Of a stretch of 64,000 bases of DNA, positions 7,394 to 61,555 are shown in pieces. Positions within the stretch are counted from its first letter, which is position 1. Each line of letters starts with the position of its first letter. Source of the stretch: Tolumonas lignilytica (GTDB taxonomy: Bacteria; Pseudomonadota; Gammaproteobacteria; Enterobacterales; Aeromonadaceae); the NCBI RefSeq assembly GCF_000527035.1, contig NZ_AZUK01000001.1:310001-374000 (forward strand), read 5' to 3'. Position numbers and translations under genes: made by a program. The notes below the pieces were generated by a model. The model had not been told where the DNA came from, did not search any database, and saw only the letters and a list, made by a program, of their open reading frames with translations.

Positions 7394-7444
7394 ATGACCT
7401 TACTGAAGACTGTGCATCACCATCACCGCCATCATCCGGAATAG
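7394..7444 (+). CDS. hisL: his operon leader peptide
   Basis: This 16-codon frame reads MTLLKTVHHHHRHHPE. Six of seven consecutive codons are histidine, interrupted by one arginine. In enteric bacteria, ribosome stalling at these codons when His-tRNA is scarce lets an antiterminator form and the his genes be transcribed. The frame ends about 70 bp before the terminator hairpin, the usual arrangement. The E. coli peptide has seven uninterrupted histidines, so the arginine is a small difference. Confidence 0.93.
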   Translation: MTLLKTVHHHHRHHPE

Positions 7445-7488
7445 TCTTTCAGGAGGATTGCTGCTGGAAGACACCGACGTGACTTCCC

Positions 7489-7546
7489 AGTGGTTCCCAA
7501 GCCAATCACTAAACCCTCGGAAGCCACTACTTCCGAGGGTTTTTTC
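7489..7546 (+). terminator. his attenuator (terminator/antiterminator)
   Basis: A 12-bp stem (7512-7523 with 7530-7541, core CCCTCGGAAG/CTTCCGAGGG) followed by a run of Ts ends about 20 bp before hisG. The competing antiterminator can be seen: AGTGGTTCC at 7489-7497 pairs, with one bulged base, with GGAAGCCACT at 7519-7528, which removes the 5' arm of the terminator. Confidence 0.92.
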
Positions 7547-7564
7547 ATTTACAAGGATATAACT

Positions 7565-44140: not shown

Positions 44141-45118
44141 TCAGCCTCCGATTGATGCTAGATGTGGTGTCACGCCACTGTTCCCTTCATGCAAGAAATG
44201 GGTTTCCCGTTTCTGGGTTAAGCCTTGCAGAATGCGGCTTTGTAATTCGCTGTTTTGTTCATCGGTTTGCAACAGATCGCGCAGAGGCACGCCTTCTTCA
44301 CCAAACAGACAAAGATGCAGTTTGCCGATGGATGAAACCCTCAGCCGATTACAGTTCGCACAGAAATCTTTGCTGTAAGGCATGATGAGGCCGATTTGCC
44401 CTTGATAATCCGGGTGCGAAAACACCTCCGCCGGGCCATCGGTCAGATCGCGGTTTTGCTGCACCCAACCCTCCCGCAGCAGACGCGCTTTCACCGGCAG
44501 ACCACTCTGGTGGTGTTTCTGAAAACGGGCATCCATCTCACCAGTTTGCATCAGTTCGATTAAGCGTAGCTGGATCTGCTGGTTTTTCAGCCAGAACAGG
44601 AATTGCGAAAACTCGTGGTCGTTGAGGTTTTTCAGCAATACGGTGTTCACTTTGATTTTGCGAAACCCGGCTTGCTGCGCGGCATCCAGCCCGGCCAGGA
44701 TCTCCGCCAGTTTGTTTTCACCAGTAATGAGTTGAAACTGACGTGGGTCGAGACTGTCGATGCTGACATTGAGGGAGCGTAACCCGGCATCAAACCATTG
44801 CTGCGCCCGCTCTTTCAGGCGATAACCGTTGGTGGTCATCGCCACATTTTCGATACCGGTGATGTTGGCCACGGTTTCAATAATCGCTGGCAGATCACGG
44901 CGCATAGAGGGTTCACCACCGGTGAGGCGGATCTTCTTCACGCCCAATTCGGCAAAGCTGGTCGCCACCCGTCGAATTTCGTCGACAGTGAGGAAAGATT
45001 TGCGTCCGTCGGGGCGATAGCCATCCGGCAGACAATAAGTGCAGCGAAAATTACAGGCTTCTGTCACGGACAGACGCAGGTAATGAAAGCGGCGGGAAAA
45101 ACCGTCTTCTAATATCAT
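44141..45118 (-). CDS. moaA: GTP 3',8-cyclase (radical SAM)
   Basis: This 325-residue enzyme performs the first step of Moco synthesis. The radical-SAM cluster motif CNFRCTYC is near residue 23, and the C-terminal cluster appears as [21 protein letters not shown]. The usual C-terminal GG is replaced by a slightly longer tail that still ends SIGG. The frame is open to 45286, but the start at 45118 (AAAGGT upstream) gives the family length. It heads moaA-mobA-moaB-moaC-moaD-moaE, an unusual order with mobA and moaB inside. Confidence 0.96.
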
Positions 45119-45136
45119 AAACACCTTTCCAAATTC

Positions 45137-45220
45137 GGGAGGCCAGTGCATTTCTTTACTGACCCTCGCAGTGTTAACTGCTCGGCTGTATGACCTTATC
45201 GGAGACTTAGGTAATACAGC
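45137..45220 (-). ncRNA. Structured moaA leader, candidate Moco riboswitch
   Basis: Three stems can be traced in the 5' UTR of moaA on the minus strand: a 7+3-bp stem (GCTGTAT/ATACAGC with an ACC/GGT extension, 45185-45220), GCAGT/ACTGC with a 4-nt loop (45168-45181), and a GAGG..CAGT/ACTG..CTCC arm (45139-45167). A compact multi-stem leader in front of moaA fits the Moco RNA motif known upstream of moaA in E. coli. I could not verify the conserved nucleotides from memory, so family membership is inferred. Confidence 0.5.
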
Positions 45221-45241
45221 TCGGTGTGTGTTTTGTATTCC

Positions 45242-47492: not shown

Positions 47493-47822
47493 TTATTCCG
47501 CTTTTAACCAGACTTCGTTATCACGCACTTCCACCGGCCAGCTTTTTACGGCGATCCCTGGCGCGTCTAAACAACGACCGTCGCTCAGTGCGAAATGCTG
47601 CTTATACAAGGGCGATGCGACACACAGTTCATCCTGAATATCGCCGATAATGCCGCGGGAGAGCACAAAGGCCTCACCCAGCGGATCCCAGTTATCCAGT
47701 GCATATACCGATGGAATTTCATTCGGTATATAAAACACCGCAACCTGTTTCCCATTTACTAATGCAGTACGGCCGGAATGTTCAATCAGGTCGTTCAACT
47801 CACAAATTTTTTGCCAGCTCAT
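47493..47822 (-). CDS. nirD: Nitrite reductase small subunit
   Basis: This 109-residue protein has the Rieske-like fold of NirD. It has none of the Cys/His cluster ligands, as in E. coli NirD. It partners NirB in reducing nitrite to ammonia with NADH. Its start overlaps the nirB stop by 4 bp (ATGA). Confidence 0.94.
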   Translation of the reverse strand: MSWQKICELNDLIEHSGRTALVNGKQVAVFYIPNEIPSVYALDNWDPLGEAFVLSRGIIGDIQDELCVASPLYKQHFALSDGRCLDAPGIAVKSWPVEVRDNEVWLKAE

Positions 47823-50338
47823 ACCAACTCCTTGATTAAAATTAACTCTTCATCCGCCATAGGGATCGCCTGCTCACGCACGATCTGACGTGGTGGCATA
47901 TATGCCTCATCGCTATTCACGAACGGTGCAAAGCGTTTCAGTTTTTCCTGATCTTCAATGGTGGTTTTCCATTCACACTGATAGGTCGCGATCAGGTGCT
48001 GCATCTGCGTATCCAGCTCAGTGGCAATCCCAAGTTTGTCGTCGATGACCACCGATTTCAGGTAATCCAGACCGCCTTCCATGTTTTCCATCCACACGGA
48101 GGTACGTTGCAGACGATCACCGGTGCGGATGTAGAACATCATCAGGCGATCGATATATTGGATCAGCAATTCATCGGTGAGATCGGTAGCGAACAGATCG
48201 GCATGCCGTGGACGCATCCCGCCGTTGCCACAAATGTAAAGGTTCCAGCCTTTATCGGTCGCGATCACGCCAAAGTCTTTGCTTTGTGCTTCGGCACATT
48301 CACGTGTGCAACCGGAAACAGCCATCTTGATCTTGTGCGGTGATCTGACGCCTTTGTAGCGATTTTCCAGCAGTACCGCCATGCCGACTGAATCTTGCAC
48401 GCCATAACGACACCAGGTCGAACCGACGCAAGATTTCACAGTACGCAGCGATTTGCCATAGGCATGACCGGTTTCAAAACCGGCATCGACCAGTTCTTTC
48501 CAGATCGCCGGTAATTGATCCGCTCGCGCACCAAACATGTCGATACGCTGACCACCGGTCACTTTGGTATAAAGGTCATATTTCTTCGCCACCTGCCCCA
48601 ACACAATCAGCTTGTCGGGAGTAATTTCCCCGCCGGCGATACGCGGTACGACCGAATAGGTACCGTCTTTTTGCAGGTTGCCGAGAAAAGCATCATTAGT
48701 GTCCTGCAATGGCTGATGCGGCTTTTCCAGGATGTGATCGTTCCACAGTGATGCCATGATAGAGCCGATCATCGGTTTGCAGATATCACAGCCGCGGCCT
48801 TTGCCGTGCTTGCTTAGCACCTGTTCAAACGTTTTCAGTTCGCCAACGCGGATCTGATGAAACAGTTCCTGACGGGTAAACGCAAAGTGTTCACAAACAT
48901 GGTTGTTTGCTTCCATGCCCATTTCGGTCAGCGTCTGATCAACCACCTGTTTCAACAGGTTCGAGCAACCACCACAACCGGTGCCTGCCTTGGTGCAGGC
49001 TTTCACATCGGCAACGGTATGGTTACCCGCTTTCACCGCCGCAACCACATCACCTTTGGTGACGTTATGGCAGGAACAGATGGTGGCGGTATCCGGCAGC
49101 GCCAGTGAGGTCGGTTTCGCACTACCGCCTTCCGGCAGCAGCAGTGACAGCGCAGGATCAGGCAGTTCCATCTTGTTCAGATAGAATTGCAGCAGTTGAT
49201 CGTAATCGCTGTTATCGCCAATCAGGATCGCACCCAGCAGGATTTTACCGGTTTCATCGGTCACCAATTTTTTGTAGATGCCGGACGGACGATCCAGCAG
49301 CAGTAATTCCTGCGCACCTTCACTGGCCGCATGGCTGTCACCGATAGCACCGACATCGACACCCATCAGTTTCAGCTTGGTGCTCATGTCGGCACCTTTA
49401 AAGCGGGTGTCACCACCCAGTAACGTACTGACTGCAGAGCGCGCCATCTGGTAGCCCGGTGCCACCAGACCAAAAATTTTGCCTGACCACAGTGCACATT
49501 CACCGATCGCCAGAATATCCGGATGCGAGGTTACGCACTGTTCATCAATCGTTATGCCGCCCCGTTCGCCCACAGCCAGACCGGCCTGACGCGCGAGACG
49601 ATCTTCCGGGCGGATACCGGCAGAGAACAGGATCACGTCAGTTTCGAGATGGGTACCATCTTTGAACATCATGCGGTGCAGTGCGCCTTCACCATCGACG
49701 ATTTTGTCAGTGGCAGTATCGACATGCACTTTCACACCCAGACTCTCAATTTTGTTTTTCAGCATGTCGCCAGCAACCGGGTCGAGCTGAACCGGCATCA
49801 GGCGTGGCGCAAACTCGATGACATGCGTTTCCAGACCGAGTAGGCGCAGCGCGTTAGCCGCTTCCAACCCCAGCAAACCGCCACCAACAACCACACCGGT
49901 ACGGCCACCAGCACAGGCATCGCGGATTTCATCAAGGTCAGCCAGTGTGCGATAGACATAGCAGCCCTTACGCTCATGACCAGGAATAGGTGGAACGAAC
50001 GGATAAGAACCGGTTGCCAGAACCATTTTGTCGAATGCATAGATATCACCATGTTCAGAAACAATCTGTTTTTTGTCCAGATCCAGCGCTTCGGCTTTAC
50101 AGCTCAGGATCAGGGACACGCCTTTCGCGGCATACCATTCCGGATCGGCCATCTGCAGCTCTTTCGGCGCCCGTCCGCCAAAGACTTCCGACAGATGTAC
50201 CCGGTCATAGGCGCTATCAGGCTCGGCACCCAATACCGTGACGTCGAATTGTTCCAGACCACCAGCGTTGACCAGTTGTTCCACGAAGTGATGGCCAACC
50301 ATGCCGTTTCCGACGACTAACAAACGTTGTTTGCTCAT
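47819..50338 (-). CDS. nirB: NAD(P)H nitrite reductase large subunit
   Basis: This 839-residue cytosolic flavo-siroheme enzyme carries out the six-electron reduction of nitrite to ammonia. In order: an FAD/NADH-binding oxidoreductase part (LVVGNGMVGHHFVEQL, VVGGGLLGLEAANAL), a BFD-like [2Fe-2S] domain (CSCHNVTKGD, GTGCGGCSNLL, about 420-470), and the sulfite/nitrite reductase core with the 4Fe-4S/siroheme ligands (CVGSTWC and CTRECAEA). An antitermination leader precedes it. Confidence 0.97.
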   Translation of the reverse strand: MSKQRLLVVGNGMVGHHFVEQLVNAGGLEQFDVTVLGAEPDSAYDRVHLSEVFGGRAPKELQMADPEWYAAKGVSLILSCKAEALDLDKKQIVSEHGDIYAFDKMVLATGSYPFVPPIPGHERKGCYVYRTLADLDEIRDACAGGRTGVVVGGGLLGLEAANALRLLGLETHVIEFAPRLMPVQLDPVAGDMLKNKIESLGVKVHVDTATDKIVDGEGALHRMMFKDGTHLETDVILFSAGIRPEDRLARQAGLAVGERGGITIDEQCVTSHPDILAIGECALWSGKIFGLVAPGYQMARSAVSTLLGGDTRFKGADMSTKLKLMGVDVGAIGDSHAASEGAQELLLLDRPSGIYKKLVTDETGKILLGAILIGDNSDYDQLLQFYLNKMELPDPALSLLLPEGGSAKPTSLALPDTATICSCHNVTKGDVVAAVKAGNHTVADVKACTKAGTGCGGCSNLLKQVVDQTLTEMGMEANNHVCEHFAFTRQELFHQIRVGELKTFEQVLSKHGKGRGCDICKPMIGSIMASLWNDHILEKPHQPLQDTNDAFLGNLQKDGTYSVVPRIAGGEITPDKLIVLGQVAKKYDLYTKVTGGQRIDMFGARADQLPAIWKELVDAGFETGHAYGKSLRTVKSCVGSTWCRYGVQDSVGMAVLLENRYKGVRSPHKIKMAVSGCTRECAEAQSKDFGVIATDKGWNLYICGNGGMRPRHADLFATDLTDELLIQYIDRLMMFYIRTGDRLQRTSVWMENMEGGLDYLKSVVIDDKLGIATELDTQMQHLIATYQCEWKTTIEDQEKLKRFAPFVNSDEAYMPPRQIVREQAIPMADEELILIKELV

Positions 50339-50412: not shown

Positions 50413-50664
50413 GCTCAAAAAAAAACGCCTCACTGGATAATTCCAGTGAGGCGTCATTGCCTGAGTAACCAAATTCTTCGGTAGCCAGTTGGCTGATCCG
50501 TTAACAATTTAGATACATTCAGCTTTCATGCCAATTTTAAAAACCTCTTAAAACATAGCCTTTAGATGCATTTTTAGGTTTTTTGCCGGGTTTCCTGCGC
50601 TTTTCATGGTTCACGACGGTGCAACTGCACCAGATCAGTCAACCAGCATGGCGAAGGTTTTGCG
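50413..50664 (-). repeat. Duplicated nasT-tail plus leader block, copy at nirB
   Basis: This ~250-bp block is a diverged copy of 57136-57378. It begins, on the minus strand, with a remnant of the 3' end of nasT: the codons for LVD and the TGA stop (50635-50637) plus a few bases before them. The conserved GGTGC-NNNN-GCACC hairpin, a diverged AT-rich middle and the near-identical leader then follow. The remnant does not encode a protein. Confidence 0.85.
50417..50494 (-). promoter_or_regulatory. nirB leader: ANTAR-type antitermination site and terminator
   Basis: On the minus strand a 12-bp terminator stem (ACGCCTCACTGG with CCAGTGAGGCGT, 50425-50454) runs into nine Us about 80 nt before nirB. 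A small hairpin, AGGC-AATGAC-GCCT (50449-50462), uses the first bases of the terminator arm and has a hexaloop with A at position 1 and G at position 4, the ANTAR recognition pattern. An upstream hairpin at 50483-50494 (AGCC-AACT-GGCT) has only a 4-nt loop. NasT is the likely ligand. Confidence 0.78.
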
Positions 50665-50666
50665 AT

Positions 50667-52394
50667 CTAACCCGAGTGAAAAATCCGGTAGAACAGTTGC
50701 ATCAGATTGCCCAGTAGCAAAATCAAAGCAGTGAATTTCCAGAATAAAAGCGGGTTCTCTTCCAATATGGGTCGATGCTGTAAACCAGCTTCCAGTTCCC
50801 GGTTGGGTGCTGAAATATCCGTTAAAAATTCAGAGAACGCCTCATAACGGTTTTCCGGTACCGGCTGCAATGCCTTTTGCAAAGCAGCATCGACCCAGAC
50901 CGGCAGATCCGGGCGAAAATATTTCGCCGGCGTATAGGTAAGCTCCGCGTAACTTTTCAGTTTCCCAGCACGCGGAGAACGTTCTTTATAGGGCAGCTTT
51001 CCGGTCAGCATTTCATAGACAATAACCGCCAGCGAGAACAGGTCGGAACGCATGGTGCCGCTAACCCCCATTAAATATTCCGGCGCAATGTAATTTACAC
51101 TGCCCTGCGGGATCGATTTATCTAGCGGCGAATTCATCTCCTGACTACCAGCGACCAGCACCGTTCCAAAATCGAGGATTTTGACCTTGCCCTCGGGGGT
51201 GAGCATGATGTTTTCCGGTTTCAGATCCTGATGCACCATGTCGTTTCGCTGAAAGGCGCGCAGCCCGGCAATGATTTGCTTGGTGATATCCCGCACCGTC
51301 GTTAAATCAGGTGCCGGATGTTCATTCATCCAGGTTCGTAAATCACAGCCAACAATGTATTCCCCCAGATAATACATAAACTGTTTCGGCCGCAGCGGTT
51401 TATAGGTCTTCATCACATTGGGATGGTCAATGGTCTGCCCGACCCACTCTTCGCGGATAAAACCATCCAGATAGAGCAGATCTTCGGTGAAATATTCCGA
51501 AGGTGCCTTGAGCACAAACAGCGCACCGCTTTCAGTGTCTCTGACTTGATACATATGGCTGCGGGTGCCGTTGAAGATGATATCCAGCACTTCATACCCG
51601 TCGATTTTATTGCCGATCAGCAATACGGGCGGGATCGGTAATTGCGTCAGTCGTTGCTGCGTTTCATCCAGTGTCTCATTCGGCAGTGAATCGACCGCGA
51701 GTACCAGCACCGTCAGATTATCTTCACTGCCTTGATACAACGCGAGATCAACCAGCGCTTTAGCTTGTGCTTCTGGATCTTGTGCCCGAAAAAGGATTTC
51801 CTTCATCGTGGCGGATGTCAGCACACCGTGTACACCATCGGAGGTAAGAATGATGCGGTCGCCTTCATTGAGCACGCGTTTCAGATAATCGACTTCGAGG
51901 TGTGAATCCGCCCCCAGCGCACGGGTCAGGTGTGTGCGTTTACCGCTGGTGGCCACATGATCAGTAGTGAGTTTTTCGAGTTGTTGCTGGCTATATAGAT
52001 AGATCCGGCTGTCACCCACATGAAAAATATGCAGCGTGGCCGATTTCACTACCGCCGCAGAAAAGGTCGTCAGCATGCTGTCTTTGATGCCGTGATTCTG
52101 CTGGTTTTTCTGATAGAGCCAACGGTTCAGGCTGGAAATGACCTTGGAGGCACTGGTACTGACACTCCAGCTCGGCGAGGTGCTGAGATAATCATTGATG
52201 AAACTGGTGACGGCGGTCTGACTGGCAATGTGTGAATCTTCACAGCTGCTGACACCATCAGCAATGACCGCAACCCCCCCTTTCTGCTCCAGCTCGCAGC
52301 CATCCGGGATCTTAACGGCAAAGGCATCCTGATTGATGGACTTTTGCCCGGCGATGGAATAGCCACCAACCCGAACCTTGAGGGATTTTGCCAT
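50667..52394 (-). CDS. PP2C phosphatase / Ser-Thr kinase fusion, membrane-anchored
   Basis: Residues 1-235 form a PP2C-type phosphatase (NQDAFAV, VIADGVSS, LTSDGVHGVL, SEDNLTVLV). Residues 265-530 form a Hanks-type kinase with the ATP-site Lys in FVLKAP, the catalytic HQDLKPENIML loop, DFGTV and an APE-type APEYL. A single C-terminal membrane helix (LILLLGNLMQLFY) would anchor it in the inner membrane. It lies between the nitrate transporter and nirB, as I recall for a similar gene in Pseudomonas aeruginosa. It may adjust nitrate uptake or reduction by phosphorylation; the target is unknown. Confidence 0.92.
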   Translation of the reverse strand: MAKSLKVRVGGYSIAGQKSINQDAFAVKIPDGCELEQKGGVAVIADGVSSCEDSHIASQTAVTSFINDYLSTSPSWSVSTSASKVISSLNRWLYQKNQQNHGIKDSMLTTFSAAVVKSATLHIFHVGDSRIYLYSQQQLEKLTTDHVATSGKRTHLTRALGADSHLEVDYLKRVLNEGDRIILTSDGVHGVLTSATMKEILFRAQDPEAQAKALVDLALYQGSEDNLTVLVLAVDSLPNETLDETQQRLTQLPIPPVLLIGNKIDGYEVLDIIFNGTRSHMYQVRDTESGALFVLKAPSEYFTEDLLYLDGFIREEWVGQTIDHPNVMKTYKPLRPKQFMYYLGEYIVGCDLRTWMNEHPAPDLTTVRDITKQIIAGLRAFQRNDMVHQDLKPENIMLTPEGKVKILDFGTVLVAGSQEMNSPLDKSIPQGSVNYIAPEYLMGVSGTMRSDLFSLAVIVYEMLTGKLPYKERSPRAGKLKSYAELTYTPAKYFRPDLPVWVDAALQKALQPVPENRYEAFSEFLTDISAPNRELEAGLQHRPILEENPLLFWKFTALILLLGNLMQLFYRIFHSG

Positions 52395-52468
52395 GTGTTA
52401 CCCCACAGCATGATTTCTGAAAAGAGAAAAACGGCTATTGAACAATAGCCGTTTGAATTACCTTAAGA

Positions 52469-53941
52469 TTAACCGACTTTGATAAGTTCTACCGTGCCGT
52501 CATCGTTGATTTCGGCCATATGGCCGCGCGGTTCGTTCATAAACAGGATGGCGATGATCCCGAGAATCGCGGTGGCCGCAATCACCAGAAAGAAGGTTGA
52601 ATAATCCACCAGCGACAGCACCGTCAGGAAAAATACCCCGCCGGTATTGCCATACGCCCCAGTCATGCCGGCGATTTGGCCGGTCAAGCGGCGTTTAATC
52701 AGCGGCACAACCGCAAACACGGCGCCACACCCCGCCTGCACACAAAAGGAACAGGACATGGCAACCAATACCGCGATCAACAATGGCCAGGCACTGTTGA
52801 TCATCGACATGGCGCAGTAACCCATCGCCAGCCCGGCGATGACGAACATCAGGGTCTTTTTGCGACCGAAATGATCACTGAGCCAGCCCCCGCAAGGACG
52901 CGCCACCAGATTCATAAAGGCAAACATCGAGGCCATCAGACCGGCATAAACCATATCGAGTTTAAACACTTGGGCAAAGAACATCGGCAGCATGGAAACC
53001 ACCGCCAGCTCAGAACCGAACGTCGTGAAATAGAGAATATTGACCGCAGCGACCTGTTTAAACTGGTAACGCTGAATGGCGGGTACTGGCGTATGGAAGA
53101 TCTCTTTATTGACCTTATAAACGCAGGAACAGTCGTAAATCAGAATCGCCGCGAGAATGACATACACCACCGAAGCCATGGATTCGGAAATCAGCGCCAC
53201 CCCGTGCGGCGACAATTTCCAGCCAACCAGCACCAGCGCGATATACATTGGCAGTTTCATCAGCAGCAGGAAGAAAAAATCGCCCTTACTGGTGACTTCC
53301 AGCCCGCCCATTTTTTTGGATTTAAAATAGGTGGAACCTTTCGGCGAATCAGAGACGTTGAAATACCAGATCACGCTGAACACCAGACAAATCAGACCAG
53401 ACAACGCCACCGCATAACGCCAGCCATTGTCGCCCCCAAAGAAGAGCGCCAGCGTCGGCATAGAAATCGCTGCAGCAGCCGAGCCAAAATTGCCCCAGCC
53501 ACCGTAGATACCTTCAGCGATTCCCAGTTCATTGGCCGGAAACCACTCGCTGACCATGCGGATACCGATGACGAAGCCGGCACCGACAAAACCGAGCAGT
53601 AAACGGGCCATTGCCAACTGAGTAAAATCGGTGGCAAACGCAAACCAGAAGCAGGGCAGACTGCCTACAAACAATAAAAACGCATAGGTCAGTCGCGGAC
53701 CGAACTTATCGGTCAGCATACCGATAATAATGCGGGCCGGAATGGTTAACGCGACATTCAGGATCAGCAGTGTTTTCACCTGTGCCATGCTGATATCCAG
53801 TGACTTGGCGATCGCCCCCAGCAGCGGCGCATGGTTAAACCACACCACAAATGAAATGAAAAATGCCATCCAGCTCAGATGCAGGATCTTCATCTTGCCG
53901 CTAAAGGACAGCATATTAAATTTATTCTCTTGTCTCATCAT
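52469..53941 (-). CDS. NarK/NasA-type nitrate/nitrite transporter (MFS)
   Basis: This 490-residue inner-membrane protein has 12 hydrophobic helices and the nitrate-porter signatures GFVGAGFVIGIRMVSEWFP and GAYGNTGGVFFLTVLSLV (the second NNP motif). It would import nitrate by proton symport or exchange nitrite. It is coupled to the upstream ABC genes by a 6-bp gap, so the block encodes two independent nitrate uptake systems. Confidence 0.93.
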   Translation of the reverse strand: MMRQENKFNMLSFSGKMKILHLSWMAFFISFVVWFNHAPLLGAIAKSLDISMAQVKTLLILNVALTIPARIIIGMLTDKFGPRLTYAFLLFVGSLPCFWFAFATDFTQLAMARLLLGFVGAGFVIGIRMVSEWFPANELGIAEGIYGGWGNFGSAAAAISMPTLALFFGGDNGWRYAVALSGLICLVFSVIWYFNVSDSPKGSTYFKSKKMGGLEVTSKGDFFFLLLMKLPMYIALVLVGWKLSPHGVALISESMASVVYVILAAILIYDCSCVYKVNKEIFHTPVPAIQRYQFKQVAAVNILYFTTFGSELAVVSMLPMFFAQVFKLDMVYAGLMASMFAFMNLVARPCGGWLSDHFGRKKTLMFVIAGLAMGYCAMSMINSAWPLLIAVLVAMSCSFCVQAGCGAVFAVVPLIKRRLTGQIAGMTGAYGNTGGVFFLTVLSLVDYSTFFLVIAATAILGIIAILFMNEPRGHMAEINDDGTVELIKVG

Positions 53942-53947
53942 GATGTC

Positions 53948-54778
53948 CTACGCTACCGCACTGCTTTTACTGTGCTTGCTACTTTTCAGCCGTGTTACTT
54001 TGCTGTGTTTTTCATACAAGAAACTCAGCACCTGTTGGCGTAAATGGTGGTAATGCGGGTTATCCGCCAGCTCAACCCGATCACGCGGACGCGGCAGATC
54101 AATATTCAAAATTTCACCTACCGTAGCCGATGGCCCGTTGGTCATCATCACTATGCGATCTGACAGCAACACGGCTTCATCGACATCATGGGTGATCATG
54201 ATGACGGTGTTATTCAGTTCAGCTTGGATTTCCATCACCGAGTCTTGCAGATGCGCACGGGTCAGCGCATCGAGTGCGCCAAACGGTTCGTCCATCAGCA
54301 GCACCTTGGGTGACAGTGACAGTGCACGTGCGATACCGACACGCTGTTTCATCCCCCCGGAGATCTCATGCGGCTTCTTATCCAGCGCGTGATCCATCTG
54401 CACCAGCGACAGGTAATAACGCACTTTCTCGTCAATCTCTTTTTTGCTGGCCTCTTTCATTACCTGCCGGACTGCAATTTCGACGTTTTGGTACACCGTC
54501 AGCCAGGGTAATAACGCATGGTTCTGGAACACAACCGAACGTTCCGGGCCGGGGCCATCGACCTCACGACCATCGAGAATGATGCCGCCGGAAGTAGCTT
54601 CGGTCAGACCCGCAACCAGATTCAGCACGGTACTTTTGCCGCAACCGGAGTGACCGATCAGGGAGATAAACTCCCCTTTGGAGATCTTCAGATTGACGTC
54701 AACCAATGCCTCAAAGAAGCCTTTGTCGGTTTTGAAACGCATGCCTACGGCACTTAAATCGAGATAGGTTTTGCTCAT
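53948..54778 (-). CDS. nrtD: Nitrate ABC transporter, ATP-binding protein
   Basis: This roughly 276-residue ATPase has Walker A (GHSGCGKSTVLNL), the signature SGGMKQRVGIARAL, Walker B (VLLMDEPFGALD) and the H-loop (MITHDVDEAV). It belongs to the NrtC/D-SsuB-TauB group and energises uptake through NrtB. There is no C-terminal substrate-binding domain, hence the NrtD-like label. The ATG at 54778 lies eight bases from AGGGA; an in-frame TTG lies 6 bp upstream. Confidence 0.92.
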   Translation of the reverse strand: MSKTYLDLSAVGMRFKTDKGFFEALVDVNLKISKGEFISLIGHSGCGKSTVLNLVAGLTEATSGGIILDGREVDGPGPERSVVFQNHALLPWLTVYQNVEIAVRQVMKEASKKEIDEKVRYYLSLVQMDHALDKKPHEISGGMKQRVGIARALSLSPKVLLMDEPFGALDALTRAHLQDSVMEIQAELNNTVIMITHDVDEAVLLSDRIVMMTNGPSATVGEILNIDLPRPRDRVELADNPHYHHLRQQVLSFLYEKHSKVTRLKSSKHSKSSAVA

Positions 54779-54796
54779 TTTCAATATCCCTATTAA

Positions 54797-55738
54797 TTAG
54801 CGCAGTTCACTGCGTTTATCCCAAGAGAACCATTTCTGTAATTGCAACATGCCGCGATCCAGCATGAAACCGATCACACCGATGGTGAACACCGCCACCA
54901 TGATGCGCGCCAGAGACTGCGAGCTGCCGTTCTGGAACTCATCCCACACGAACTTGCCCAAGCCCGGATTCTGCGCCAGCATTTCAGCGGCAATCAGCAC
55001 CATCCACGCCACCCCCAGCGACAGGCGCAAGCCGGTAAAGATCATCGGAATGGCCGATGGCAGCACGATTTTGCGAACATGCGTGATGGGGTCGAGTTTC
55101 AAGACTCGGCTGACGTTTTTTAAGTCCGGCTCGATGTTGGCGACCCCGACAATGGTATTCAGCAAGGTTGGCCACAGGCTGCACAACGTGACGGTGAAAG
55201 CCGAGTTGATGAATGATTTCGCCACCAGTGGGTTATCGGTCGAATACACCGCACTCACCACCATGGTCACCAGCGGCAGCCAGGCCAGTGGCGATACCGG
55301 CTTCAGGATCTGAATAACCGGGTTGAGTGCCTGATACATCCAACGGTTCAGCCCCAGAATGATGCCCATTGGAATGGCGATCAGGCTGGCGATGCCGAAA
55401 CCGGTCGCAACGGTCAGCAGACTGGTTCCAATCTGGTCAAAGAAGGTGGGCCGCCCGGTATAAGGGCGGATCATCACTTTTGCATCCGGATTTTCTTTCA
55501 GCTTGTCAGCATTACGCTGCTCCTGACGCTGATAAAAGGCAGTTTTTTTTACCTGTTCGGCTTCATGTTCATGCACCAGCCCCATGAATTGCTGCGCGGT
55601 GGCCACCGGGCCCGGTAAAGCGCCCAATGTTGTTTTCACCTGACTGGCCGCGATCTGCCAAAAGAACAGGAATACAAGTAATCCAATCAGCGGGAACGCC
55701 ATGTTCTTCCACTTAATTTGCTGCAGTAATGCTGACAT
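54797..55738 (-). CDS. nrtB: Nitrate ABC transporter, permease
   Basis: This 313-residue inner-membrane permease of the NrtB/SsuC type has six hydrophobic helices and the EAA-like loop NVSRVLKLDPITHVRKIVLPSAIPMIFTGLRLSLGVAW. A charged stretch of about 50 residues after helix 1 is a little longer than in many homologues. AGGAG precedes the start. It lies between nrtA and nrtD. Confidence 0.92.
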   Translation of the reverse strand: MSALLQQIKWKNMAFPLIGLLVFLFFWQIAASQVKTTLGALPGPVATAQQFMGLVHEHEAEQVKKTAFYQRQEQRNADKLKENPDAKVMIRPYTGRPTFFDQIGTSLLTVATGFGIASLIAIPMGIILGLNRWMYQALNPVIQILKPVSPLAWLPLVTMVVSAVYSTDNPLVAKSFINSAFTVTLCSLWPTLLNTIVGVANIEPDLKNVSRVLKLDPITHVRKIVLPSAIPMIFTGLRLSLGVAWMVLIAAEMLAQNPGLGKFVWDEFQNGSSQSLARIMVAVFTIGVIGFMLDRGMLQLQKWFSWDKRSELR

Positions 55739-55763
55739 GGTGGTATCTCCTCTTTACTGAAAC

Positions 55764-57128
55764 TTACAGCTTCTGATCGCCTTTCAAGCCAATCGGGAAT
55801 TGCTTCAGGTAATCGTTTGGCTTGTGCCCGTCATAGGTGATGCCATCGATGAAGTGGTTGTCCGGCGCTTTGTAGCCAGTTTCTTTGGCAAAATCGGGGA
55901 AGTCGCTGGCTTTCATTTTGCCTTCCGCAATCAGCTCTTGTGCCGCTGCACGATAGATGCCCGGTTGATACACTTTTTTCGCGATCTCGGCATACCAGCT
56001 ATCCGGTTTGCCTTCCGGGATCTGGCCCCAGCGACGCATCTGGGTCAGATACCAAATTGCATCGGAGTAATAGGGATAGGTGGCGTTATGACGGAAGAAA
56101 ATGTTGAAGTCAGAAGCCGGGCGTTTATCGCCTTTCTCAAACTCAAAGGTGCCGGTCATGGAGTTGGCGATCACTTTGGCATCGGCACCGACATATTCCG
56201 GTTTCGCCAGCAGGTTTACAGCTTCCTGACGATTGGCGTTGTTGTTCTGATCCAGCCAGTAAGCGGCACGAATCAGCGCCATGATCAGATGAATGTGCGT
56301 GTTCGGGTATTTATCCGCCCAAGCTTTTGAAACACCGAATACCTTTTCCGGGTTGTCATGCCAGACATCATCATCGGTCACCACCGGGACACCGATACCC
56401 TTGAATACCGCCGCCTGATTCCACGGCTCACCCACGCAATAGCCGGAGATCGTGCCCGCTTCCAGTGTGGCTGGCATTTGTGGTGGCGGAGTCACTGACA
56501 GCAACACATCAGCCTGTAATTGCCCGGCGTTATCGCCTTTCTTCGGCGCATAGTAGCCGGGGTTCAGACCACCCGCGGCTAACCAATAACGTAACTCGTA
56601 GTTATGCGTGGAAACCGGGAAGACCATGCCCATATTGAAGGGCTTACCCTGATCTTTGTAAGACTTGATTACCGGCTTCAGCGCATCTGCCTTGATCGGA
56701 TGAACAATCTTACCGCTCGCATCTTTCGGCAGATTGGCCTTCATGGCATCCCAGACTGAGTTGGAAACAGTAATGGCATTGCCGTTCAGATCCATACTAA
56801 AGGCAGTCACCACATCGGCTTTGGTTCCAATGCCGATGGTTGCACCCAATGGCTGCCCTGCCAGCATATGCGCCCCATCCAGCTCACCATCAATGACACG
56901 ATCCAGTAACACTTTCCAGTTAGCCTGCGCCTCCAACGTGACGTACAGCCCTTCGTCTTCAAAATAACCTTTCTCATAGGCGACGGCCAAAGGGGCCATG
57001 TCAGTCAATTTGATAAAGCCGAGTTTCAGTTCTTCCTTCTCTGGCGCCCCTACTTTGGCCTGTGCCGAAGTAGACAACAGCACCGCACTGACCATCCAAG
57101 CTACTGCATTGTGTTTTAATTTGATCAT
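55764..57128 (-). CDS. nrtA: Nitrate ABC transporter, substrate-binding protein
   Basis: This roughly 454-residue protein with a signal peptide (cleavage after STSAQA) matches periplasmic NrtA/NasF nitrate binders. Typical segments are [56 protein letters not shown] and WDAMKANLP. The related regulator NasS lacks a signal peptide, so this is the transporter form. The ATG at 57128 has GGAG seven bases before it and lies just past the leader terminator. Confidence 0.94.
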
Positions 57129-57135
57129 TCCATTG

Positions 57136-57378
57136 CTCCAAAAAAAACGCCTCACTGGTTAATTCCAGTGAGGCGTCATTGCCTGAGTTACCAAATTGTT
57201 GGAAAGCCGCCGTTGGCTGATCCGTTAACAAATTTGATACATTCAGCTTTCATGCCAATCTTCAAATTCATTAAAAGATGGCTTTTTTATGCATTTTTAA
57301 CCAATTTTGTAAAACTTTATGAGTCAAATCGGTGCATTCGCACCGGATCAGTCAACCAGCGTGGCGAGAATTCTGCGT
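57136..57378 (-). repeat. nasT-tail plus leader block, original copy at nrtA
   Basis: This is the source or sister copy of the block upstream of nirB (50413-50664). It includes the last codons of nasT, a GGTGC-GAAT-GCACC hairpin just past the stop, and the complete nrtA leader. The identity is highest in the leader and in the nasT tail. Confidence 0.85.
57140..57218 (-). promoter_or_regulatory. nrtA leader: ANTAR two-hairpin antitermination site and terminator
   Basis: The terminator (12-bp stem, 57147-57176) runs into eight Us and ends only about 12 bp before the nrtA start. Two ANTAR-type hairpins precede it: P1, AGCC-AACGGC-GGCT (57205-57218), and P2, AGGC-AATGAC-GCCT (57171-57184). Both hexaloops have A1 and G4. 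P2 shares bases with the terminator arm, so the two structures exclude each other. This is the architecture of the Klebsiella nasF leader. Confidence 0.87.
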
Positions 57379-57908
57379 GCCAGATCGGCCATCGACTGGT
57401 TGTTTTTCATGGCGGTGGAACGCATGACTTTGTAGGCCGTTTCTTCATCCAGCCCCTGAACCTTCATCAGACGCGCCTTGGCTTGCTGGATCAGCTTATT
57501 TTCTTCCAGACGTAACGTCAGATCGTCAACAGCCAATTGCTGTTTCCGCATGACGTCTTGTTGCAGACGGGCCTGTTTCAGCCAGCTTTCTACCGGTTCT
57601 TTCTCTTCCACCCGATGTGGCACCAGGGTAACCCCTGCCTCTAACAAGAGTTGTTGTTGATTTTCAGGCAAGTTTTCCATAAACAGCACCACCGGCAGCC
57701 CCTGACTGGCCAGTGTGGTCGCAATTAATCGCCATTCTGCGGGTAAGCGCCGGCAGTCGAGCATCGCGCCATTGATGCCGCCCGGCGGATGCATTGGGTC
57801 GATCTGTTTCACCAGAAAAGGCTCATGACCATAGCGACTCAATAACAAACCCAGGCGGTTTGCCTGGGCAATGTCATCGCTATAAATCAGGATCTTCGAA
57901 TAACTCAT
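57348..57908 (-). CDS. nasT: NasT-like ANTAR antiterminator
   Basis: This 186-residue RNA-binding regulator has a receiver-like N-terminus (about 1-115), a coiled-coil linker and a C-terminal ANTAR domain (about 125-182; LRLEENKLIQQAKARLMKVQGLDEETAYKVMRSTAMKNNQSMADLARRIL). An Asp is present at the acceptor position (MLDC), but the conserved receiver Lys is not evident. The length fits NasT rather than NasR, which has a nitrate-sensing NIT domain. NasT normally works with NasS; no nasS is in the window. Its probable targets are the three leaders in this cluster. Confidence 0.9.
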   Translation of the reverse strand: MSYSKILIYSDDIAQANRLGLLLSRYGHEPFLVKQIDPMHPPGGINGAMLDCRRLPAEWRLIATTLASQGLPVVLFMENLPENQQQLLLEAGVTLVPHRVEEKEPVESWLKQARLQQDVMRKQQLAVDDLTLRLEENKLIQQAKARLMKVQGLDEETAYKVMRSTAMKNNQSMADLARRILATLVD

Positions 57909-57929
57909 CCATGATTCCTAATAGAAGAT

Positions 57930-58691
57930 CTAGGCGACCGATTGCAGCAGTGTTTCGGCCATGTCACCTAACTCGGCACGCAACTGAACGACCTCACCCA
58001 TGATCATCAAAACCGGCGTTAACCCGGTTAAAGTATGGGCGGTTTGTTCCAGACACGCGAGTGTCGTGACTTCAACCCGTTGCTGACGTGTGGTGCCAGC
58101 TACCACCAGCGCCACCGGTAAATTTGCCGGTGCACCTGCCTGTAATAAGCCGCGACGCAATTCCGTTGCCCGCTCAAGCCCCATGTAAAAAACCAGTGTA
58201 CCACCACTTTTGACCAGACCACTCCAGCCGTGGAACTCGCCACCATCCTGCACATGCCCGGTCACCAGCGTCACCGAACGAGACAGGCCACGGTGCGTCA
58301 GTGGAATACCAGTCGCCGCCGAGCAACCAATCGCGGCGGTAATACCCGGCACAACATCAAATGGCACACCATTGGCCACCAGCAGTAAAGCTTCTTCACC
58401 GCCGCGGCCAAAGACATACGGATCGCCCCCTTTAAGACGCACAATCCGCTGATATTTCCCGGCCAGCGTCACCAGTAACTCCGAGATGGCTTCCTGTTTC
58501 AGGCTAGGCTCGCCACAACGCTTGCCCACATCGTAACGGGCCGCTGAGGCCGGGATCAGCGCCAAAATGTCTTCACTGACCAAGCGGTCATACACCACTA
58601 CGTCGGCTTGCTGAATACAACGCAATGCCTTGACGGTCAACAAATCCGGATCGCCGGGGCCCGCACCGACTAACGAAACAAATCCACTCAT
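57930..58691 (-). CDS. cobA: Uroporphyrinogen-III C-methyltransferase
   Basis: This 253-residue SAM-dependent methyltransferase makes precorrin-2, the precursor of the siroheme needed by NirB. It has the SUMT signatures VGAGPGDPDLLTVKALRCIQQADVVVYDRLV and RLKGGDPYVFGRGGEEA. It lacks the CysG dehydrogenase/ferrochelatase domain, which must be encoded elsewhere. The ATG at 58691 is eight bases from GGAG; a GTG 9 bp upstream is too close to it. Confidence 0.95.
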   Translation of the reverse strand: MSGFVSLVGAGPGDPDLLTVKALRCIQQADVVVYDRLVSEDILALIPASAARYDVGKRCGEPSLKQEAISELLVTLAGKYQRIVRLKGGDPYVFGRGGEEALLLVANGVPFDVVPGITAAIGCSAATGIPLTHRGLSRSVTLVTGHVQDGGEFHGWSGLVKSGGTLVFYMGLERATELRRGLLQAGAPANLPVALVVAGTTRQQRVEVTTLACLEQTAHTLTGLTPVLMIMGEVVQLRAELGDMAETLLQSVA

Positions 58692-58723
58692 TTGCCACAC
58701 TCCTCTGCTTCGTTCTTCGTCAT

Positions 58724-61342
58724 TTAAGCGTCGTTACTGCGGGTATGTTTATGAAGTAATTTCTTCAGTTCAACCACACACGTACCGCAATTGGTGCCGC
58801 AACGCAGCAAGCTCTGCAAGCCACTCAATTCCCCAATGCCCTGCTCACTGATCGCATCGACAATCTGTTTTTCGCTGACACGGAAGCAGGAGCAGATCAT
58901 CCTACTCTCGCCAGCCAAAGCCTGTTCTAGCGTGGTCGATAACGCCGTACTGTTCATCGGCAAGCCTAATAAACCAGCCAGTAAATCAATATTGACCTGC
59001 TGATGCGTAGTACTGACCATCAACAAACCAATGATGCGCCCCTGATTCAGTTTCACAGCCAGCCAGCCACCTTTCAGTGGTAGACGTAACCAGCGTCCCT
59101 GCTGGGCAATCTGGAACCAGACCTCTTCGGCCGTGCGGGTTTCATCGGTCAGACGACGACATTCGCCGGCATCCAGCGGACGACGCGCCCACCAGCTTAC
59201 GTCCAGTTCCGGATCATGCTGGCCGACCCACAAGCCATGCCATTTAACATTCACCGCCTCCGGCATCACTTCGGTTTGCTTGAACTGTGGCTGCCCCGAA
59301 ACCGCATCGGTCACCGGCGCCACCAGCCGGTTGACACCGGAGCAGGAGGAAAAATCATCCGACCAGTGCATCGGCATAAACGCTTCGCCATCCCGCAAGC
59401 CATCGTCGCGCCCCAACAACGTCATGACGGAACCCTGCAACGAGTTAATGCGGATCAGCGCACCTTCACTGAATCCGCTCGCCAGCAGAGTTTGCTGGTT
59501 CACATAGACCTTCGGCAGCGGTTCGGTTTCCATCAGTCGGGGTAAATGACCAGTACGGGTCATGGTATGCCACTGATCACGCAACCGACCGGTATTCAGT
59601 AACCAACTCCCCGCCTGCCGTTCTGCCTTGCGTTTCAGCACGGGTTCTTGTGGCACCACGGCCAGCAGATTGGCCTTGCCATTCGGGGTAGAAAAACGGC
59701 CATCAGCAAATAAGCGCTGACGGACACCACTTTCACCAGCCGGTAACGGCCATTGCCGTGGCGTGAACTGCTCGTATTCTTCATCGGTCATCGTCGCCAG
59801 CGAGGAAATATCAAATTGCCGACTGTAGTTTTCAAAACCGGAAAGTGCCGCATGTTCTCGGAAGATATCGACCGTATCGTGGTAGTTAAATGCCTCGGCG
59901 AAGCCCAGACGTTTACCCAGTTCCGCCATTGCCCACCAGTCGGGTTTGGCCTCACCGGGTGCCTGAGTAAATGCACGCTGGCGGGTGATGCAGCGTTCTG
60001 AGTTGGTCACCATGCCACCCCGCTCACCCCAACCCGCCGCAGGCAGCAATAGATCGGCAAACTGGGCAGTGTCGGTTTTCGGGGTCATTTCAGAAACCAC
60101 CAGAAATTCGCATTTTTCCAGCGCTTCGCGCACCATCACCGAATCTGGTAATGAGACTGCCGGGTTGGTCGCTACCACCCACAACGCACGGATCTTGCCA
60201 TTGCGCACCGCTTCAAACATATCCACCGCTTTTAAGCCCGGTTGACGGGCAATATTCGGCGCACTCCAGAAGCGGGCAACCCGATCGCAGTTTTCGTCGG
60301 TAAAGGTCATGTGCGAAGCCAGTTGTGTCGCCAGCCCCCCCACTTCGCGTCCGCCCATCGCATTCGGCTGGCCGGTCATCGAAAACGGAGACGCACCCGG
60401 TTTGCCAACCCGTCCGGTCAGCAGATGCGGATTAATTAGCGCATTGCCCTTGTCTGTCCCCTGATTGGACTGGTTGATCCCCTGACAAAACAGCGTCACC
60501 GCTTTTTCGTTCTCGCCAAACCAGCGATAGAATGTCTGTAACTCACTGACCGTGAGACCACATTTCTGCGCCACGTTCTCCAGCGTGTAGTCCGGTGTCA
60601 TCACCAGCGCATGCAGCTCACTGAAGCCGTTGACGTGATCTTCGATATAGGCGTTATCCACCAGATCATGTTCCAGCAGATAGCGGCTTAAGCCGTTAAA
60701 CAGCCAGACATCGCTGCCGGGGCGAACCGCCAGATGCAGATCGGCCTGCTCCGCCGTCATGGTCTTGCGAGGATCAATCACCACCATTTTCATGTCAGGA
60801 CGCCGCGCCCGCGCCTGCTGGATCCGGCGGAAGATGACCGGATGCGTCCATGCGGTATTGGCACCGGCAATGACCAGCAGATCGGTGATTTCCAGATCTT
60901 CGTAACAGCCGGGCACCACGTCTTCACCGAAAGCGCGACTGTGCGCCATGACAGCAGATGACATACACAGGCGCGAGTTGGTATCGATATTGGCAGCACC
61001 AATGAAGCCCTTCATCAGCTTATTGGCAATATAGTAATCTTCGGTGAGCAACTGGCCGGAAACATAAAAGGCCACCGATCCCGGGCCGGTTTCCGCGATG
61101 ATGCGGCTGAACTGAGCTGCCATTTCATCCAGCGCCTTATCCCAGCTCACCTGTTGCCGGTGCAAACGCGGGTACAGCAGACGATTCGGAAAAGCCAGCG
61201 TCTCCATCAAACTGCCGCCTTTGACACATAACGCCCCGCCATTCGCCGGGTGTTCCGTATCACCAGACAAGGTTTTGGCATCCTCTACGGTAATGCCGCA
61301 ACCGACTCCACAATAAGCGCAACTGGTATGAACGCGACTCAT
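58724..61342 (-). CDS. nasA: Assimilatory nitrate reductase catalytic subunit
   Basis: This 872-residue cytosolic molybdoenzyme binds bis-MGD and reduces nitrate to nitrite. The N-terminal [4Fe-4S] motif is CAYCGVGCGI with a later Cys in GALCVKGG. Further motifs include DTNSRLCMSSAVMA, the GQPNAMGGREVGGL active-site region and TVxR-type cofactor loops. A C-terminal BFD-like [2Fe-2S] domain (CSCFRVSEKQIVDAI, CGTNCGTCVVELKKLL) is fused, as in Klebsiella NasA. It heads the cluster and is followed by the methyltransferase and nasT. Confidence 0.95.
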   Translation of the reverse strand: MSRVHTSCAYCGVGCGITVEDAKTLSGDTEHPANGGALCVKGGSLMETLAFPNRLLYPRLHRQQVSWDKALDEMAAQFSRIIAETGPGSVAFYVSGQLLTEDYYIANKLMKGFIGAANIDTNSRLCMSSAVMAHSRAFGEDVVPGCYEDLEITDLLVIAGANTAWTHPVIFRRIQQARARRPDMKMVVIDPRKTMTAEQADLHLAVRPGSDVWLFNGLSRYLLEHDLVDNAYIEDHVNGFSELHALVMTPDYTLENVAQKCGLTVSELQTFYRWFGENEKAVTLFCQGINQSNQGTDKGNALINPHLLTGRVGKPGASPFSMTGQPNAMGGREVGGLATQLASHMTFTDENCDRVARFWSAPNIARQPGLKAVDMFEAVRNGKIRALWVVATNPAVSLPDSVMVREALEKCEFLVVSEMTPKTDTAQFADLLLPAAGWGERGGMVTNSERCITRQRAFTQAPGEAKPDWWAMAELGKRLGFAEAFNYHDTVDIFREHAALSGFENYSRQFDISSLATMTDEEYEQFTPRQWPLPAGESGVRQRLFADGRFSTPNGKANLLAVVPQEPVLKRKAERQAGSWLLNTGRLRDQWHTMTRTGHLPRLMETEPLPKVYVNQQTLLASGFSEGALIRINSLQGSVMTLLGRDDGLRDGEAFMPMHWSDDFSSCSGVNRLVAPVTDAVSGQPQFKQTEVMPEAVNVKWHGLWVGQHDPELDVSWWARRPLDAGECRRLTDETRTAEEVWFQIAQQGRWLRLPLKGGWLAVKLNQGRIIGLLMVSTTHQQVNIDLLAGLLGLPMNSTALSTTLEQALAGESRMICSCFRVSEKQIVDAISEQGIGELSGLQSLLRCGTNCGTCVVELKKLLHKHTRSNDA

Positions 61343-61359
61343 CCTTGCCTCTCAAAAAT

Positions 61360-61403
61360 AAAAAAACGTCCGGCCCCACGAGAGAGCACGGACGTCGATG
61401 TCC
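61360..61403 (-). promoter_or_regulatory. nasA leader: ANTAR-type hairpin overlapping a terminator
   Basis: A terminator (ACGTCCG with CGGACGT, 61366-61395, 16-nt apical part) runs into six Us plus a T-rich stretch about 20 bp before nasA. A hairpin, GGAC-ATCGAC-GTCC (61390-61403), uses its 5' arm and has the A1/G4 hexaloop. The sequence differs completely from the nirB/nrtA leaders, so this is an independent site, not a duplicate. No P1 hairpin is evident upstream. Confidence 0.72.
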
Positions 61404-61426
61404 CAAATCTAATTTAATATTTTTGA

Positions 61427-61442
61427 TACAAGTTTCATGCCC
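61427..61442 (-). promoter_or_regulatory. Weak sigma54-like element before the nasA leader
   Basis: On the minus strand GGGCAT-N5-TTGTA has the exact -24/-12 spacing of RpoN promoters but lacks the invariant -12 GC. Similar GGCATGAAA elements precede the nrtA (57242-57257) and nirB (50518-50533) leaders, with CTGAA at -12. Nitrogen control by NtrC would make sense; the matches are weak. The rest of 61404-61555 holds no gene. Confidence 0.3.
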
Positions 61443-61555
61443 GATTTAAACAATCTGATAACACTCGATTTTTCGGGGAAAAGGCGGAGAAACGCACCAT
61501 GATTGAACAACAAAAGAAACGAAGCGCACTAATAATGCTCATATTCGTGCACCGA

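Follow-up and report, generated by a model that had tools for sequence, protein, structure and literature searches.

Within a 64,000-nucleotide (nt) stretch of the Tolumonas lignilytica genome (the window; contig NZ_AZUK01000001.1, positions 310,001 to 374,000), the assimilatory nitrate reductase gene nasA, the nitrate transporter genes nrtABC and the nitrite reductase genes nirBD are each preceded by a leader in which a hairpin with a six-nucleotide loop (hexaloop) overlaps an intrinsic terminator. One ANTAR protein, NasT, is encoded in the same cluster. We consider it probable, from the sequences compared here, that NasT controls all three leaders and that it works through a single hexaloop at nirB and nasA. 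For the most part the finding is of an ordinary kind. Two of the three leaders, however, have a reduced form whose function is not predicted by current models, and the reduced nasA form is, judging by the leaders of relatives, conserved in the family.

In each leader the 3′ arm of a 4-base-pair (bp) hairpin, here called P2, doubles as the 5′ arm of the terminator (Table 1). All three combine the features expected of the P2 part of an ANTAR target: a stem of at least 3 bp, a hexaloop with A at position 1 and G at position 4 (A1/G4), and overlap with a mutually exclusive intrinsic terminator. An earlier note, made from the letters of the window, had named these three loops, and both the sequence and the hairpin scans confirmed them. 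Folding against 200 shuffles each gave z values of −7.3 for nirB and −4.5 for nrtA, both better than all 200. A first scan of the window returned two P2-overlapped terminators (nirB and nrtA) among 24 terminators, compared with one in 12 shuffled strands, and missed nasA because its terminator is imperfect. A search of Rfam left these leaders unmatched at gathering score, and we judged its matches below threshold (PyrR, Spot 42, ctRNA) to be chance.

According to the papers cited here and below, the ANTAR motif consists of two hexaloop hairpins, both A1/G4, with P2 overlapping the terminator; Enterococcus faecalis needs both hairpins and has linkers of 5–12 nt (PMC3369931), an actinobacterial survey allowed linkers of 2–25 nt (PMC8164766), and in vitro selection (systematic evolution of ligands by exponential enrichment) with NasR yielded these loops too, closed by a C:G pair (PMC7496416). 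When we scanned the three leaders for A1/G4 hexaloops on stems of 3 bp or more, two were found at nrtA, one at nirB and one at nasA. The nrtA leader therefore possesses the upstream hexaloop, P1. Its P1–P2 linker of 20 nt at first seemed too long, an idea that we rejected because folding predicts an outer stem that extends P1 and shortens the linker to 11 nt. At nirB a tetraloop hairpin is all that is left of P1, and in the stretches scanned at nirB and nasA no A1/G4 hexaloop with a stem of 3 bp or more occurred besides P2. The nasA P2 begins 24 nt past the predicted −12 position, leaving about 13 nt of predicted RNA ahead of it, which is too short for a P1, and folding predicted no hairpin upstream of P2 in this leader. 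We therefore kept nirB and nasA out of the dual-hexaloop class, though we expect them to act in a similar way. The earlier note had applied the characterised ANTAR rules to all three sites, which does not hold, since the published rules include P1; what stands of its three-switch reading are the three P2–terminator switches, the one ANTAR gene found, located between the nasA and nrtA leaders as the note had said, and a design that is kept in relatives.

To describe that design we surveyed 158 regions upstream of nasA, nrtA, nirB and narK from 64 loci with a looser scan than the first, taking genes whose match started by residue 60 and which had at least 120 nt upstream. P2–terminator overlaps were found in 25 of 41 nasA, 40 of 62 nrtA, 7 of 46 nirB and 2 of 9 narK regions (shuffle means 0.05, 0.05, 0 and 0, respectively). 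When A1/G4 was not demanded, hexaloops overlapping terminators appeared in 23/41 nasA, 37/62 nrtA and 8/46 nirB regions, and six was the commonest loop size, loops of 4, 5, 7, 8 or 9 nt occurring in 1–6 regions each. The loops recovered in this way had A1 and G4 in 23 of 23 cases at nasA, with positions 2, 3, 5 and 6 variable; at nrtA A1 was seen in 37/38 and G4 in 38/38, and at nirB in 7/8 and 8/8. An alignment of 19 nrtA/nirB-type leaders (18 of the 21 distinct leaders of the window's genus g1 and the Aeromonas-like genus g2, plus the nirB leader of locus L007) showed pairing in every cell of P2 and terminator. One of four P2 pairs and five of ten terminator pairs changed on both sides, and the covariation score was never reached by shuffles (0/500 for both P2 and terminator).

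The distribution of P1 differed between the leaders. Counting upstream A1/G4 hexaloops with at least 3 bp and at least two G–C pairs within 60 nt, in leaders with a P2–terminator, we found P1 before nrtA in 9/9 leaders of the genus, 3/4 of family f22 and 10/11 of other families (22/24 outside g2; L104 and L078 are those without it), and in 0/16 of g2. Before nasA it was found in 0/8 leaders of the genus, 0/8 of g2 and 0/2 of g5, that is 0/18 for these genera of the window's family, and in 1/6 of f22 and 1/1 elsewhere. The nirB leaders gave 0/6 in the genus (0/9 after adding three more) and 0/1 elsewhere, and narK gave 0/2; fractions in shuffled sequences were 0.00–0.09. In L083 and L088 the P1 from the pattern scan was not formed in the folds. 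Dropping the G–C demand left nasA at 0/18 and changed only genus nirB (7/9), narK (1/2, in genome G001) and g2 nrtA (1/16, L058).

The nirB leader is part of a duplicated promoter–leader cassette of about 240 nt that includes a copy of the last 20 nt of nasT; the same search found no third copy of the nrtA/nirB promoter–leader in the genome. In L004 and the Aeromonas-like genomes nirB follows nrtC, and no leader was found. L007 has the nirB leader, but neither narK nor the kinase gene was matched in the interval from nrtC to nirB; in L047–L050 and the window both genes lie there in addition to the leader. G001 carries a further leader, resembling a copy of the duplicated cassette, before narK. 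This gene order suggests a stepwise history. The earlier note held that the nasA site evolved separately; its stem is indeed unlike that of nirB and nrtA, but the GGAC/GTCC hairpin is common to nasA leaders of other genera in the family. As this hairpin is shared across genera and the nirB and nrtA leaders are mutual copies, the three leaders are not independent inventions. Inverted repeats GGTGC-N4-GCACC lie at 57331–57344 and 50618–50631, upstream of the nrtA and nirB promoters, and were copied with the cassette; their half-site order differs from what we take to be that of NtrC sites. A hexaloop of another kind (GAGC-AAAGGC-GCTC, A1/G4), unlike the copied leader, overlaps a terminator-like repeat before narK in L050 (position 9212, plus strand).

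Each leader is headed by a predicted sigma-54 element, scored against a weighted consensus. The eight g2 nasA orthologues with a leader scored 21–22 of 26, and in L049 the best-scoring site for nasA was located elsewhere.

A search of the genome (assembly G000, 3.63 Mb) found no ANTAR gene besides the window's nasT, whose product is 88–95% identical to relatives in Tolumonas. An AlphaFold model built from five sequences (predicted local distance difference test 83.6, predicted template modelling score 0.64) had AmiR (1qo0), Rv1626 (1s8n) and EutV (6ww6) as first PDB matches, with TM-scores of 0.47–0.63. These matches indicate a receiver-like N-terminal domain, for which the Pfam scan gave no receiver match, and the ANTAR part aligns with the solved NasR and EutV chains. 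AmiR of Pseudomonas aeruginosa, the first of the fold matches, serves an amidase operon and has AmiC as its partner. The equivalents of EutV K149, E160, Y164 and M172 are kept in all eight genus sequences aligned, and an alignment of the ANTAR part was obtained for 50 of 63 loci.

We propose that nasA, nrtA and nirB are each transcribed from a separate sigma-54 promoter and that an attenuator lies behind each promoter. In the default state the terminator would form in the nascent RNA and RNA polymerase would stop. NasT, once active, presumably in response to nitrate, would grip the A1/G4 hexaloop of P2 and hold the arm shared with the terminator, and the polymerase would then read into nasA, nrtABC or nirBD. 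The nrtA leader would represent the characterised two-hexaloop switch; at nirB, whose leader was apparently copied later from that of nrtA, and at nasA, with its separate leader common to other genera, NasT would act through a single hexaloop.

Several observations weigh against this proposal. The nasA stretch folded only modestly (z −2.5, with 4 of 200 shuffles as good), P2–terminators were not found in 16/41 nasA and 22/62 nrtA regions (among them the two g5 nrtA regions and the five g4 regions), and relatives inside one genus are related and not independent events. In the nrtA/nirB-type alignment, 467 of 500 shuffles equalled the number of P2 pairs with changes on both sides, and the nasA P2 stem is invariant in an alignment of 13 of the 17 distinct nasA leaders (L048, L059, L061 and L066 left out), so that nasA yields no covariation. 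A P1-like hexaloop does precede nasA in L077, a locus outside the family, where the linker is 38 nt long, and one of 3 bp was seen at L073 nasA. Asn137 of NasT occupies the place of NasR R340 and EutV R142 (mapped by us through the chain alignment and the published residue numbering). NasR R340 is described as near-universally conserved and essential; R340A abolished antitermination, and R340K bound about 10-fold more weakly (PMC7496416). Asn is found at this place in 8/8 genus sequences and Arg in 39/42 others, the exceptions being L076 and L108 (Gln) and L105 (Val), in whose nrtA regions no P2–terminator was found. Since the genus keeps the P2 loops, we read Asn137 as pointing to altered instead of lost RNA binding.

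The sensor NasS was likewise not found in the window's genome by a search with the PF13379 family. The matches were NrtA and one substrate-binding protein of about 40 bits, which we rejected as NasS given its score, its signal-like N-terminus and the permease-like frame behind it. The search was extended to 13 further genomes. In four of the genus, four of g2 and two of f22 no NasS was found; each had one strong match (324–334 bits), NrtA by its place, and the other matches, counted by score alone, reached at most 71.5 bits. The outgroup genomes G143, G603 and G462 have a strong match beside nasT, in G143 a second one (248 bits). The proteins beside nasT in the last two (loci L083 and L088; 370 and 307 bits, 34–36% identical to NrtA) we take to be NasS by their place.

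One rival view is that NasT switching works at the nrtA leader alone and that P2 at nirB and nasA belongs to plain or degenerate terminators or to basal attenuators that NasT binds too poorly to matter. EutV requires both hexaloops in vivo (PMC3369931, PMC8934654), and NasR binds P2-only RNA at about 12 µM, more poorly than two-hairpin RNA (PMC7496416), so that the reported EutV and NasR data favour two hexaloops; nirB and nasA lack P1, and nirB is a copy in which P1 is reduced. Isolated P1 and P2 were, on the other hand, bound by EutV with similar affinity (PMC8934654), which counts for single-loop action. We regard this restriction to nrtA as unlikely in view of the A1 and G4 found in 23/23 nasA P2 loops, though other positions vary, and of the P2 and terminator present in the nine genus nirB leaders found, despite several forms of P1.

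Another view is that P1 is still used at nirB and at Aeromonas-like nrtA, not as a C:G-closed A1/G4 hexaloop but as an upstream stem or weak alternative loop that recruits NasT or another factor in an undescribed way. Folding predicted a hairpin upstream of P2 in 9/9 genus nirB and 16/16 g2 nrtA leaders, none of them an A1/G4 hexaloop. The relaxed count rests at nirB on a weak hairpin, GTTA-ACGGAT-TAGC/T, present in 7/9 genus leaders; it weakens the case for a single hexaloop at nirB in relatives, though not at the window's nirB or at nasA. This nirB/narK candidate is A–T closed, lies 29–46 nt before P2 (30–46 nt at nirB) and is absent from the predicted folds, from the window's nirB leader and from that of L007. 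In five of eight g2 nasA leaders (L058, L060, L061, L092, L094) a weak 4–5 bp hairpin with a 7-nt loop directly precedes P2 and could be a decayed or unusual P1. Loop size and sequence vary freely, and in the window's nasA leader the roughly 13 nt before P2 contain no predicted hairpin; we thus consider continued use of an altered P1 quite improbable. That NasT of the genus no longer binds RNA, leaving all leaders as constitutive partial attenuators, would agree with Asn137, with the failure to find NasS and with the nrtA regions of the other Arg exceptions, where no P2–terminator was found, but seems very improbable to us given the A1/G4 loops of P2 in genus leaders and of P1 in 9/9 genus nrtA leaders and the four retained EutV-equivalent residues.

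If NasT does act through single hexaloops, the family might use ANTAR antitermination of the single-hexaloop kind for nitrate reductase and, in certain members, also for nitrite reductase or the transporter. The NasT of Tolumonas would do so with neither a NasS partner nor the Arg that is held essential for RNA binding; the need for two hexaloops would then be a trait of some leaders and not of the mechanism. We advance this wider reading tentatively. Regulons with several ANTAR leaders have been described (four eut sites, Pelobacter, Desulfotomaculum; PMC3369931, PMC7496416), and three leaders in one cluster are therefore not in themselves new. The 2022 EutV structure paper holds antitermination to need both loops and calls for further bioinformatic and experimental study to establish what role single-hexaloop sites have (PMC8934654). 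No paper on single-hexaloop attenuation leaders was found in the literature searched, which covered few subscription papers.

Among the closest described systems is nasF/NasR of Klebsiella oxytoca (PMC7496416), also a nitrate assimilation operon with C:G-closed A1/G4 hexaloops and P2 over a terminator. It differs in that NasR senses nitrate through a domain of its own, in that nasF carries P1 as well as P2, and in that one leader is described there versus three here. Two f19 loci that we examined (ANTAR frames of 433 and 448 codons) have the dual form, as in nasF. With eut/EutV of Enterococcus faecalis (PMC3369931, PMC8934654) our system shares one ANTAR protein for several terminators (four in eut), the P2 overlap and the receiver–ANTAR fold; it differs in that eut sites are dual hexaloops with 5–12 nt linkers and EutW phosphorylates EutV, while nirB and nasA have a single hexaloop. 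NasS–NasT of Paracoccus denitrificans and Bradyrhizobium likewise places a NasT-type antiterminator on nitrogen-oxide genes, and Paracoccus NasT bound the nasA leader in vitro, but these systems contain the NasS sensor that we did not find here (PMC3795266, PMC5424462, PMC6759348).

The Tolumonas leaders form a natural, conserved set in which one protein faces both designs side by side, so that a single NasT could be tested on a dual (nrtA), a copied and reduced (nirB) and a very short (nasA) leader. They raise the questions of how NasT would sense nitrate without NasS and bind RNA without the usual Arg, and the presence of the reduced design in relatives makes an open question about the ANTAR switch class testable.

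Table 1. Features of the nitrate assimilation cluster and its leaders (window positions)
Feature	Position	Strand	Basis or remark
nirB P2 hexaloop hairpin AGGC-AATGAC-GCCT	50449-50462	-	sequence and hairpin scans
nirB intrinsic terminator hairpin	50425-50454; U-run 50417-50425	-	sequence, folding, scan
nrtA P2 hexaloop hairpin AGGC-AATGAC-GCCT	57171-57184	-	sequence and hairpin scans
nrtA intrinsic terminator hairpin	57147-57176; U-run 57140-57147	-	folding, scan; pairing in 19 nrtA/nirB-type leaders
nasA P2 hexaloop hairpin GGAC-ATCGAC-GTCC	61390-61403	-	only A1/G4 hexaloop found in nasA leader
nasA intrinsic terminator hairpin	61366-61395; U-run 61360-61366	-	sequence, folding, scan
nrtA extended P1 stem	57196-57231	-	folding; contains hexaloop hairpin AGCC-AACGGC-GGCT at 57205-57218
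nirB reduced P1, tetraloop hairpin AGCC-AACT-GGCT, no hexaloop	50483-50494	-	sequence, scan, folding
Duplicated promoter–leader cassette before nirB	50413-50654	-	78% identical to 57135-57367
nrtA predicted sigma-54 -24/-12 element (TTGGCATGAAAGCTGAA)	57242-57258	-	score 18 of 26
nirB predicted sigma-54 element, copied along with leader	50518-50534	-	score 18 of 26
nasA predicted sigma-54 element (CGGGCATGAAACTTGTA)	61427-61443	-	score 17 of 26; predicted +1 near 61416
nasT, ANTAR protein, 186 residues, AmiR/EutV-like fold	57348-57908	-	PF03861 61.9 bits (cut-off 27.3)
nasA, assimilatory nitrate reductase with C-terminal BFD-like domain	58724-61342	-	Pfam; name by family and context
nrtA, nitrate ABC transporter substrate-binding protein	55764-57128, ATG at 57128	-	PF13379 337 bits on 55764-57155
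nirB, nitrite reductase large subunit	47819-50338	-	Pfam

On the minus strand the genes follow in the order nasA, a cobA-like gene, nasT, nrtA, nrtB, nrtC, a narK-like gene of the major facilitator superfamily, a gene for a fusion of a PP2C-type phosphatase and a Ser/Thr kinase (50667–52394), nirB and nirD. Six cluster proteins were covered by the Pfam scan, and the remaining gene names come from reading and from matches to relatives. Matches to narK and the kinase co-occur also in L083, L089 and L090, which belong to other families.

Further leaders were sought in the genome with two models, R1 and R2. R1 returned nrtA (64.8 bits), nirB (63.8 bits) and three weak matches. The match at 1600080 (27.7 bits) was rejected, since its loop has 5 nt and it lies behind an rpoH-like frame, as were those at 2276472 and 2829348, which look like ordinary terminators by sequence. 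R2 returned nasA (60 bits) and one weak match at 672395 (18.1 bits). Neither model, each scoring 150 of its first-look candidates, found a fourth leader, and leaders with unrelated stems are invisible to both. Elsewhere in the window, Rfam families matched a molybdenum cofactor riboswitch near a moaA-like gene (45106–45238, minus strand; RF01055, 86.9 bits) and a histidine operon leader (7420–7548, plus strand; RF00514, 75.5 bits).

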